Origin: an unicellular cyanobacterium SU3
GTDB lineage: Bacteria; Cyanobacteriota; Cyanobacteriia; Cyanobacteriales; Microcystaceae
Assembly: GCA_002172675.1 (NCBI GenBank)
Contig: NETF01000195.1
Span: 1-37,150, forward strand
Direction: 5' to 3'
DNA: 37,150 nucleotides
Below, one piece after another: positions 23,779-34,891 of this stretch (the first letter of the stretch is position 1; every line of letters starts with the position of its first letter). Both the position numbers and the translations under genes were made by a program. The notes beneath the pieces were generated by a model. The model did not search any database and was not told where the DNA came from. It worked only from the letters and a program-made list of their open reading frames with translations.

Positions 23779-25005
23779 TTACGATTCAGCAAAACGATAC
23801 AGTAACCAGCCTCCCATAGCGAGTCCTAAAAGATTAGGTAACCAACCGGCTAAAACAGGAGAAATTAAGCCGATTAAGCCTAAACTACCAATAAGAAATC
23901 CTAAGAGATAGTAACTAAAAATAATCACTACACTTAAGCCAAAACCTGTCGCCCGACTCATGTTTTGAGGGGTTGCCCCTAAGGCTGAACCTACCACTCC
24001 AAACACCACACAAATGAAGGGAAAAGCCAATTTTTGTTGAATTCTTACTTGAAACATTCGTAACTTTTTATCATCCCCCATCATCTTTAAAATTTTCATA
24101 TATTGATTAGCTTGAATAATATTCATTTCATAAGGATCACGACCCTGTAGGGCAAATTCAAAGGCTGCTTTCGTTAACGGTAACTGTCGATGTTCAAAAG
24201 GAAAAGCTTCTTTATAAGACGAATCAGCAGATAATTGATAAATCGTGCCGTTGAAAAAATCCCAGGTTTCTTCTTGTCCATTCCAAGTGGCTGAATCTGA
24301 GACAACAATGCGATTTAATCGTTCTTCTAACCATTCTAAGACTGTTAACGTTTTTAGATTTTGACCATCAAATTGTTCAGCAAAAAATAAATGTTTTAAC
24401 CGCTTTTCTTTCTCTCCATTGGGTAACGTTACTTGTTCATAATCAGGGTAAAAAATATCTTTATTTTGCCAATAAGGATGATCTTCTTGTAAATACTCCA
24501 CTAAAATGGCTGTAGCCCGATAATTGGCCGCAGGAACCACTAACTCACTCACTAAAAATGTCACCCCTGTCACCACCAAACTCATTACCATAGCAGGAAT
24601 AATCAAACGATATAAACTAACGCCACAGGCCCGAAACGCAATTAATTCACTATCGTTACTCAAGCGTCCATAGGTCAATAAGGTGCTTAACATCACAGAA
24701 ATGGGCAAAGCATAAGCAGTAAACTCTGGCACTTTTAACAGCAAAATTTCCGATGCTTGCATCAGGGGTAAATTAGAATCGACCACCTTATCGGCTAAAT
24801 CCGATAAATAACCGATCGCTACCCCCAACACAGACACTAAACCCACAGAAAATAATAACGGTCCAATTAACTGTGAAGCCAGATAGCGATCCATTAAGGA
24901 GAATGACTGACTACCCCACTGGGTAACGCTTCGTCGATCTCTTCGAGACCGCAGAAACTGACCTAAATATCTAATAATTTTCATGGGCATCGGTTTCTGG
25001 GGCAT
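23779..25005 (-). CDS. LptF/LptG-family permease (YjgP/YjgQ)
   Basis: 408-aa inner-membrane permease of the LptF/LptG family, which with LptB extracts lipopolysaccharide and feeds it to the LptC-LptA bridge. Visible: two helices near residues 45-115 (GPLLFSVGLVSVLGVAIGYL), the family segment YGRLSNDSELIAFRACGVSL, a periplasmic beta-jellyroll domain (about 165-300), and three C-terminal helices. Cyanobacteria often have a single such gene. The start is uncertain: conserved sequence begins near SLMDRYL (Met38), and the preceding residues RSRRDRRSVTQWGSQ come from an embedded palindromic repeat. It is followed by a hairpin repeat. Confidence 0.88.
   Translation of the reverse strand: MPQKPMPMKIIRYLGQFLRSRRDRRSVTQWGSQSFSLMDRYLASQLIGPLLFSVGLVSVLGVAIGYLSDLADKVVDSNLPLMQASEILLLKVPEFTAYALPISVMLSTLLTYGRLSNDSELIAFRACGVSLYRLIIPAMVMSLVVTGVTFLVSELVVPAANYRATAILVEYLQEDHPYWQNKDIFYPDYEQVTLPNGEKEKRLKHLFFAEQFDGQNLKTLTVLEWLEERLNRIVVSDSATWNGQEETWDFFNGTIYQLSADSSYKEAFPFEHRQLPLTKAAFEFALQGRDPYEMNIIQANQYMKILKMMGDDKKLRMFQVRIQQKLAFPFICVVFGVVGSALGATPQNMSRATGFGLSVVIIFSYYLLGFLIGSLGLIGLISPVLAGWLPNLLGLAMGGWLLYRFAES
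24931..24952. repeat. Palindromic repeat copy inside the lptF/G-type gene
   Basis: CGATCTCTTCGAGACCGC lies in the N-terminal coding part and matches 17 of 20 bases of the reverse complement of the core element between arsM and arsS (33638-33657). On the coding strand it gives the Arg-rich RSRRDRRS segment. It keeps the reading frame open, so it has been accommodated as a peptide insertion or extension. Confidence 0.55.
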
Positions 25006-32611: not shown

Positions 32612-33607
32612 TTAAATTAATGATCCCCCACAACTTGAACCACTTCCTGCAGTACACCCATAACAATAATCTGCGGTTTTGATGTCGTTAATAACGTCTA
32701 ACTTCCCTATTTCTAATAATGTTTTTACTGTTAACGATTTCCCATCGGGTAAAGTCGCTGAAATATTTTCCATTTGATTAAAATCACAATCATAAATATT
32801 TCCTAAATAATCAATAGAAAGCTGATTACGACACATAACGTGGTCGAGAGTTTGAGGATTATAATGAGACTCTAAAAACTGTAAATAAGAGTCATGCAAT
32901 TTTTTATTTTTTAGATATGTTTTTATTCTGCCAATGGGTAAATTAGTGATAGTAAAAAGCTGATTGAATTTAATATCAAAATTATCTTTAAGAAAGGCTT
33001 TGTAATCTTTTTCTAAGTTAATTTGATCAGGAGTTAAAGAAAAGTTTTCATTACTAGGAATGGGGGGATTATACACTAAATCTAGGATTAAATTGGGATC
33101 ATTTCCATAACCTAATTGATTCAGTTTTTCAATGGCATGAATAGACGCATTATAAACCCCTTTCCCTCTTTGCTTATCTACATTTTCTTCTAAATAACAA
33201 GGTAAAGAAGCAATTACTCTTAACTGATACTTAGCAAAATATTCAGGTAAGTATTCAAAATTCTGTTCAAAAAATATAGTCAAATTAGAGCGTACAATCA
33301 CTTCTTTTTTGGCTTTTTTAGCTGCTTCTACTATGGATTTAAAGCCGTAGTTCATTTCTGGTGCGCCTCCCGTTAAATCAACAGTTTTAATTTGTGGAAA
33401 GCGGTTAATTAATTCAATTAATTGTTGACAGATTTCGGGTGATAATTCTTCTGTTCGTTGAGGACTTGCTTCTACATGACAATGGTTACAAGCAAGGTTA
33501 CAACGTCGTCCTAAATTGATTTGTAATACCGTTATTTTTTGTTTATTTAAAGGCTGTTTTATTTTTTGATCAAAGGGTGTTACTTGATTAGTATTTAAAG
33601 TAATCAT
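32612..33607 (-). CDS. arsS: Arsenosugar biosynthesis radical SAM protein ArsS
   Basis: ArsS attaches an adenosyl-derived sugar to dimethylated arsenic, a key step to arsenosugars. 331 aa from the ATG at 33607, which is preceded by GGAG at proper distance; an ATG four codons upstream contains that GGAG and is less likely. The radical SAM motif CNLACNHC is at Cys36, 40 and 43, and TGGAPEMNYGF is the GGE-like SAM-binding strand. The C-terminal DUF3641 part has CRNQLSIDYLGNIYDCDFNQ and the end TADYCYGCTAGSGSSCGG, which supplies further iron-sulfur or arsenic-binding cysteines. It follows arsM, the enzyme making its substrate. Confidence 0.9.
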   Translation of the reverse strand: MITLNTNQVTPFDQKIKQPLNKQKITVLQINLGRRCNLACNHCHVEASPQRTEELSPEICQQLIELINRFPQIKTVDLTGGAPEMNYGFKSIVEAAKKAKKEVIVRSNLTIFFEQNFEYLPEYFAKYQLRVIASLPCYLEENVDKQRGKGVYNASIHAIEKLNQLGYGNDPNLILDLVYNPPIPSNENFSLTPDQINLEKDYKAFLKDNFDIKFNQLFTITNLPIGRIKTYLKNKKLHDSYLQFLESHYNPQTLDHVMCRNQLSIDYLGNIYDCDFNQMENISATLPDGKSLTVKTLLEIGKLDVINDIKTADYCYGCTAGSGSSCGGSLI

Positions 33608-33630
33608 TTTTTTCTCCATATCAATAAGTT

Positions 33631-33687
33631 GTTAACAGCGATCTCGAAGAGATCCGCAAAGCGGTGCGCTAATTAATCACTGTTAAC
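33631..33687. repeat. Nested palindromic element between arsM and arsS
   Basis: The outer arms GTTAACAG (33631-33638) and CTGTTAAC (33680-33687) are perfect complements. They enclose GATCTC-GAA-GAGATC (33640-33654) and CCGC-AAA-GCGG (33654-33664). The element sits in the 93-bp arsM-arsS gap. A close relative of the core is inside the lptF/G-type gene at 24931-24952. It looks like a small mobile palindrome of REP/MITE kind and could also act as a transcript-processing hairpin. Confidence 0.65.
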
Positions 33688-33700
33688 TGATCACTGAGAA

Positions 33701-34891
33701 TTAACAACATTCTCCAGGGGTACAACAGTCTATCTCTTCTTTTATTTCTGTTAGATGATAATCACTGCCTTTGGTTTCTTTGGGATGACGAATTGCTTTA
33801 CTTTTACAACTAAATTCTGTTGCTTCTTCTATGGGTATTTCTTGATAAGGAGGAATCCCAATAATATCTTTTTGGTAAGGACTTTCTGAACGGGTTAAAA
33901 TCTGATAAGTCTTATCACAAACTGCCATTCTTTCTCCCCGACAAAAAATATGTCCGTCATCGTCTTGAACTTGTTTCCAAGGACCTTTATAAATAATAGA
34001 TTGCTTTCTTTCTAAACAAGGCCCTTCTTTACCTTTATAAGCACGAATTGTCATGGAACGAAATTCCACGCCATCAATAACTTGCCAGGGTTGTTCCTCT
34101 CGTTTAAGGATTTCAACCCCATAAAATCCTACTTTTTCAAACATCTTTAAAAATTCATCTTCTCGGAAAGCACCTGCAATACAACCACTCCACAAATCAG
34201 GATCATTTAAAATGTTTTCGGTAGGATCTTCATCACAGACAATATCAGAAATCACTACTCTCCCTCCTCGCTTTAAAACCCGATAGAGTTCTTTAAATAA
34301 CTGTTGTTTGTCCTTCGGTTTAACCAAATTTAAAACACAGTTAGAAATAACAACGTCAATGCTATTATTTGCAACTAAAGGAGACTCTTTACGTAAGCGA
34401 TCGCATTCACTTTCAAACTGACTTAAATCATCCACCGATTGAATAGGATGATCCCGTAACCAACCTTCCACTAAGTCTAAATTTAGGGTTAAATCTTGTA
34501 TTTTTCCCTTGACAAATTTAGTGTTATAAGTTCCAATTTTATCTGCAATTTCTTGTTGATATTTACGGGCGATTTTCAACATCTCATCATTAAAATCAAC
34601 CCCAATCACTTGACCCGTTTTCCCGACTTTTTGGGCTAAAATATAACAATTTTTTCCTGTCCCTGATCCTAAATCTAAAACCGTTTCCCCTTCATCTACA
34701 TAACGAGTCGGATCCCCACAACCGTAATCTTTTTCAATGATTTCTTGGGGTAAAATTTCTAAATAGTTACCCTCGTATTCTGTGGGACAACATAAACTAG
34801 GTTGTTGAACTTTTGCCCCTTCTTGATAACGATCAAGGACAGTTTTTTCAATATCATAACTAACAGAATTTGAAGAATCAGATGTTACCAT
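33701..34891 (-). CDS. arsM: Arsenite S-adenosylmethionine methyltransferase (ArsM, arsenosugar type)
   Basis: 396 aa. ArsM methylates As(III) to mono- and dimethylarsenicals using SAM. The SAM site is VLDLGSGTGKNCYILA (Gly75, 77 and 79). Arsenic-binding cysteines are visible: Cys34-Cys35 and Cys58 before the SAM fold, Cys in LWSGCIAGAF at the place of the conserved ArsM cysteine, and FCRGERMAVC. The extreme C-terminus ends IDCCTPGECC, four cysteines in ten residues. The long C-terminal extension fits the version paired with ArsS in cyanobacteria. Divergent from the GUN4 gene; no ArsR gene or obvious ArsR site is seen. Confidence 0.88.
   Translation of the reverse strand: MVTSDSSNSVSYDIEKTVLDRYQEGAKVQQPSLCCPTEYEGNYLEILPQEIIEKDYGCGDPTRYVDEGETVLDLGSGTGKNCYILAQKVGKTGQVIGVDFNDEMLKIARKYQQEIADKIGTYNTKFVKGKIQDLTLNLDLVEGWLRDHPIQSVDDLSQFESECDRLRKESPLVANNSIDVVISNCVLNLVKPKDKQQLFKELYRVLKRGGRVVISDIVCDEDPTENILNDPDLWSGCIAGAFREDEFLKMFEKVGFYGVEILKREEQPWQVIDGVEFRSMTIRAYKGKEGPCLERKQSIIYKGPWKQVQDDDGHIFCRGERMAVCDKTYQILTRSESPYQKDIIGIPPYQEIPIEEATEFSCKSKAIRHPKETKGSDYHLTEIKEEIDCCTPGECC

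Follow-up and report, generated by a model that had tools for sequence, protein, structure and literature searches.

The stretch of DNA analyzed here, referred to as the window, comprises positions 1 to 37,150 of contig NETF01000195.1 (assembly GCA_002172675.1) of the unicellular cyanobacterium SU3, and carries a gene for a permease of the LptF/LptG family (LptF/G) with a short Arg-rich stretch near its N-terminus. Our data indicated that this stretch is very probably a small dispersed mobile repeat of 24 nucleotides (nt) whose insertion split a HIP1 octamer (GCGATCGC) located toward the 5′ end of the gene. A reading of the letters alone, referred to below as the sequence-only reading, had described it as an absorbed repeat, i.e., a dispersed palindromic repeat turned protein sequence, and the comparison of filled and empty sites showed this to be so.

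Filled and empty sites in the LptF/G gene

A match to the LptF/G protein was found in all 59 of the 59 genomes examined. N-termini were compared at 43 loci drawn from two overlapping sets, 30 loci returned by protein search and 13 named loci. The results showed that the extra eight residues occur only in the window (locus L009) and in genome G006 (locus L010), taken to be Cyanothece sp. BG0011, whose locus L039 has an identical reading; the residues at the insert are FLRSRRDRRSVTQWG and FLRSPRDRRNGTQWG, respectively, whereas L011 has FLRSRWG. Among genomes of the genus, two of the eight with an orthologue carry the insert, genome G003 having shown only matches of 44–45%. When orthologues were aligned, as the sequence-only reading had proposed, and here at the nucleotide level, all seven without the insert lacked the same 24 nt, the gap being exact in each case, and in three of them (L011, L014, and L015) the empty site is exactly GCGATCGC. 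The insertion itself is certain because the evidence for it is comparative: exactly 24 nt are present in two carriers, are missing in seven relatives and lie at a site that is HIP1 in three of the seven. The peptide RSRRDRRS, said to be encoded by the repeat, is present in the translation. A locus without the repeat that nevertheless has RSRRDRRS was sought among the 43 loci and none was seen; in FLRSRWG of L011, the overlap is confined to residues that the target and adjacent codons encode. The features concerned are located in the window as follows.

24924..24947, minus strand: the 24-nt (8-codon) insertion proper, register ambiguous by about 1 base (exact 24-nt gap in seven orthologues)
24921..24952, minus strand: copy of the HIP1-split repeat in drifted form, 32 nt long, GCGGT + 24 nt + CCC (match to covariance model R1; 23/32 to the consensus)
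23779..25005, minus strand: LptF/LptG-family permease gene of 408 amino acids (aa), an open reading frame (ORF) with Pfam match PF03739, host of the insert
24982..25005, minus strand: first residues of the N-terminal tail (MPQKPMPM), which precedes the insert (genus orthologues; in-frame stop just upstream)
33638..33669, plus strand: second, near-consensus repeat copy, intergenic (29/32 to the consensus; E = 1.2e-10 with model R2, built without it)

The LptF_LptG domain (PF03739) spans residues 40–404 of the 408 in a Pfam scan, i.e., nearly the whole protein (E = 1.3e-73), and the insert lies ahead of it at about residues 20–28. In the predicted structure, the predicted local distance difference test score (pLDDT) is below 50 over residues 1–33, and the first long helix begins at residue 37, after this low-confidence tail. 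The sequence-only reading had taken SLMDRYL as the conserved start of the family and had suspected a wrong or extended start. This suspicion is not supported by the data, since the other loci also have reading frame ahead of SLMDRYL, and the tail before the insert, mostly MP.KPMPMK, is largely conserved across the genus, which argues for a translation start upstream of the insert. In addition, an in-frame stop codon directly precedes the ATG at 25005, and therefore translation starts at or after 25005. On these two grounds, the conserved tail and the in-frame stop, a wrong start codon was rejected.

The repeat family and its octamer target

In most of the 30 copies read, the repeat has the form GCGAT-CTCGAAGAGATCCGCTTTGCGGTG-CGC or a form near to it, with a few longer composites; that is, 24 nt lie inside a split HIP1, which on the other strand is equivalently GCG-ATCGC. 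The match first claimed within the window, 17 of 20 bases between 24933–24952 and the reverse complement of 33638–33657, was borne out. The LptF/G copy and the 33638 copy, which sits between ORFs 32612–33619 and 33701–34891, are the two best positions in the window against the 32-nt family consensus; the next best, at 20/32, is an opposite-strand position overlapping the copy at 33638. Genome-wide, an 18-mer taken from the LptF/G copy, allowing up to three mismatches, was found at 37 places compared with 4 for the reversed pattern, and a consensus 16-mer at 63 places compared with 18 for the control, most of the extra places being three-mismatch matches.

A covariance model of the family (R1) gave 38 matches in this genome and 125 in nine genomes of the genus (E ≤ 0.1); the LptF/G copy itself has E = 8.7e-7 with this model, which included that copy. 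With the same model the repeat was present in 29 of 50 genomes of the family (E ≤ 1e-3) and in 30 of 148 genomes of the order, belonging to 19 of 81 genera (E ≤ 1e-4), where 48 candidates were scored per genome so that per-genome counts are lower bounds. Public plasmids with the repeat come from Stanieria, Picosynechococcus, Synechocystis, and Chondrocystis, and weaker plasmid matches in Proteobacteria (E 0.06–0.7) are probably due to chance.

The target, GCGATCGC, is HIP1, reported as an over-represented cyanobacterial octamer (PMC4390886). The window has 18 HIP1 sites against 0.05 expected, and 16 of the 18 lie within ORFs of at least 150 aa. Filled and empty sites could be aligned in four genes, each with a 24-nt gap: LptF/G (2 filled and 7 empty), phosphoglucomutase (PGM; 2 and 5), LexA (1 and 4), and GlyQ (1 and 7). 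For LexA, the comparators are the four that were aligned out of eight other lexA loci fetched, one of them a second gene of the same genome. The octamer is exact at the empty site in 3/7, 1/5, 2/4, and 1/7 comparators, respectively, or 7 of 23 overall, the others being one or more bases off, and a visible target duplication is absent at the insertion sites. The repeat consensus is stop-free in all six frames, and all six frame-and-strand classes are present among 24 chosen host ORFs. With an insert length divisible by three and a consensus free of stops, a copy within a gene adds eight residues and does not break the frame; given that HIP1 sites lie mostly in genes, insertions into proteins recur, and some are tolerated.

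Some copies depart from the simple form. In six loci (L054, L055, L066, L068, L069, and L073) both ends of the repeat are kept and roughly 20–45 extra bases lie in the second half, as if these longer composites were nested or expanded elements. In seven others (L142, L149, L163, L172, L173, L177, and L099) the repeat is followed by a common cgatcttgta or a close variant, possibly the terminus of a larger mini-element in which the repeat is embedded. An identical copy with its flank is present on two contigs of this genome (L008 and L100), and the L008 copy either immediately precedes a DDE-type transposase frame or is read as its beginning.

Mechanism and alternative explanations

The LptF/G insertion would most simply date from an ancestor shared by this strain and Cyanothece sp. 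BG0011. It lies between GCGAT and CGC, keeps the frame and adds eight residues before the first long helix, where the peptide would be without function. Copies may spread by a site-specific process that acts in trans at HIP1, via a hairpin-forming RNA or single-stranded DNA.

Several results weigh against this explanation. The LptF/G copy is by itself weakly significant on sequence: its similarity to the consensus is modest, as 23/32 was also reached by one in a set of 100 dinucleotide-shuffled versions of the window, and a model from which both window copies and the BG0011 copy had been left out gave it 12.3 bits (E = 0.0073 for 41 kb) over 24936–24951 only and did not report the BG0011 copy at E ≤ 10. 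The 16 of 23 comparators lacking an exact HIP1 are expected from divergence, yet they make the proof weaker. A 6-bp hairpin is predicted for the repeat, and an RNA structure signal clearly beyond shuffles was looked for and not found (folding energies z −0.24 to −1.72). Six open frames were also obtained in 13.6% of shuffles and are therefore not special, which leaves open frames as an adaptation unsupported. No repeat copy was present in the examined flanks of nine Y1_Tnp loci in this genome as a pointer to a mobilizing enzyme. Several hosts are in incomplete draft genomes, so that single copies could be assembly errors.

The modest identity and the behavior of the independent model would suit a chance resemblance, in which an Arg-rich N-terminal tail has codons that happen to look like the repeat. 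Sequence on its own speaks against this less than strongly; it is rejected by the empty sites, since the difference is exactly 24 nt at a HIP1 site, the length and site type also seen in PGM, LexA, and GlyQ, and we regard it as extremely improbable. A recruited insert, with the basic peptide RRDRRS serving the permease, for instance by contacting lipid head groups or a partner protein, would be in keeping with the frame kept in two species and with the basic residues often found ahead of membrane helices at membrane surfaces. However, the insert is present in only 2 of 30 genome loci, pLDDT is below 50 at the insert, and the substitutions between the two carriers point the other way. Codons 20–27, the insert, show three nonsynonymous and no synonymous differences (3/8 codons compared differ nonsynonymously), codons 1–19 show four and none, and codons 28–38 two and three, whereas codons 39 onward show 15 nonsynonymous and 92 synonymous differences. 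Judged from these counts, the tail including the insert appears loosely constrained while the remainder is held, a pattern more in line with a tolerated insertion than with a recruited one; recruitment is accordingly rated as quite improbable.

A further alternative concerns the mechanism: the repeat might be mobilized by a Y1 transposase of the IS200/IS605-like (RAYT) kind, a route that has been proposed for REPINs. The repeat is hairpin-bearing, site-specific, and without target duplication, and the genome has nine Y1_Tnp matches, eight of them above cut-off. RAYTs are reported with REPs beside them (PMC3116915); however, the best position in the flanks of the nine loci is 18/32, and the GTAG mark is absent from the consensus, and we consider this route unlikely. 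The repeat resembles REPs and REPINs as a short hairpin repeat without a gene of its own, and differs from them in being site-specific in HIP1, with no GTAG mark and no RAYT association found.

In Nostoc, Elhai et al. reportedly described in 2008 families of small dispersed repeats (SDRs) of 21–27 nt, among which SDR5, SDR4, and SDR6 are said to share a common secondary structure. The repeat studied here is like SDR5, as compared by description rather than by consensus sequence, in having HIP1 as its insertion target (GCGAT-24 nt-CGC, or GCG-ATCGC on the complementary strand) and in its length, the 24 nt at the four aligned genes falling within the range of about 21–27 nt. It differs in that it was found in Crocosphaera-group genomes and in 19 of the 81 sampled genera of the order, and several of its copies are inside conserved proteins. 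Rickettsia palindromic elements (RPEs) are reported as mobile palindromic elements found in frame in conserved protein genes and also between genes (PMC2229807, PMC10969869), with a length of 105–146 bp (PMC2229807), and one guanylate kinase bearing an RPE insert is reported to be active (PMC2229807, PMC10969869). The repeat likewise is inserted in frame into conserved genes, but with 24 nt and one defined 8-bp target it is by size not an RPE. In its target the repeat works like SDR5, and in its effect on proteins it works like an RPE.

Copies inside other proteins

Places with at least 22/32 identity in the loci examined form a set of 126 rows, which includes duplicates from overlapping loci and leaves out weaker copies and one contig-end copy of genome G005. 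In 53 of the 126 rows the copy lies in an open frame of at least 70 codons. This share is below that of the window's HIP1 sites in ORFs (16 of 18), two measures that are not strictly comparable, and the difference fits selection against many gene insertions. Given that open frames are not genes, 40 host ORFs including that of the window were chosen for a Pfam scan. In nine of the 40, the element falls entirely within one above-cut-off match: PGM_PMM_I, DUF362, Peptidase_S24 (LexA), GFO_IDH_MocA, ACP_PD, tRNA-synt_2e (GlyQ), Alpha-amylase, PUCC, and p450. In LptF/G, DprA, MnmG, HemD, and Uma2 the element adjoins a domain, and some host ORFs are without a Pfam match.

The search for in-frame copies in other genes, which the sequence-only reading had suggested, was thus answered in phosphoglucomutase, LexA, GlyQ, and Cas4/Cas1. 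Against PDB entry 5f5w, GlyQ shows a clean gap of exactly eight residues; against solved structures, the gaps of LexA and PGM are split or looser, and in the P450 alignment the residues of the element show only small scattered gaps. The eight residues in Cas4/Cas1 of Synechocystis PCC 6714, encoded by an annotated plasmid gene, are lacking in all three aligned relatives. On Picosynechococcus plasmids, a diguanylate cyclase and a NACHT protein read through a copy, as seen from the reading frame alone. XseB (L091) was not counted as further proof; it has only two matches in one other genome of the genus, 61% identical, and their alignment showed no gap that could be assigned to the element.

A broader proposal, which we put forward tentatively, is that the repeat may be a cyanobacterial 24-nt mobile element with genes as a regular habitat, owing to its size, open frames, and gene-rich HIP1 target, which would repeatedly lengthen conserved proteins by eight-residue peptides (LexA, GlyQ, phosphoglucomutase, and Cas4/Cas1), with copies in 19 of 81 sampled genera. 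If so, it would be among the smallest known mobile elements that rewrite proteins. Mobile repeats lying in frame within proteins are known chiefly from Rickettsia, at about 100 bp or more, and here the unit is 24 nt in cyanobacteria. The exact octamer is kept at the empty targets of some relatives, which makes both the position of the insertion and its length directly legible. The repeat connects HIP1, itself an open question, with a mobile element; it also provides natural insertions of eight residues in enzymes that are well studied and supplies sites for testing a mobilizing activity. A literature search, mostly at the level of titles and abstract beginnings and with the founding SDR study outside the comparison, returned no report of the repeat in Crocosphaera or of SDR/HIP1 insertions inside proteins; this is no proof of novelty, and the priority of in-protein HIP1 repeat insertions is uncertain.

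Further observations concern individual hosts. Genome G005 has two close lexA-like genes (L214 and L222) that are 87% identical, one with the insert, which follows GDSLVES, and one without. The PGM match in the BG0011 relative (L209, contig G006:C8) consists of two overlapping frames, covers residues 1–155 only and has no repeat; the split is possibly due to a frameshift or a contig end. In L194 (G001), an RNB-domain frame stops shortly past the element, and the gene is perhaps broken. Copies occupy a shared position close to the C-terminus of MnmG in L170 and L186 (genomes G008 and G002) and likewise a shared position in the N-terminal part of a glycosyltransferase in L184 and L197 (G003 and G005), the Pfam scan having been run on L170 and L184 only; these shared copies suggest older, inherited insertions.
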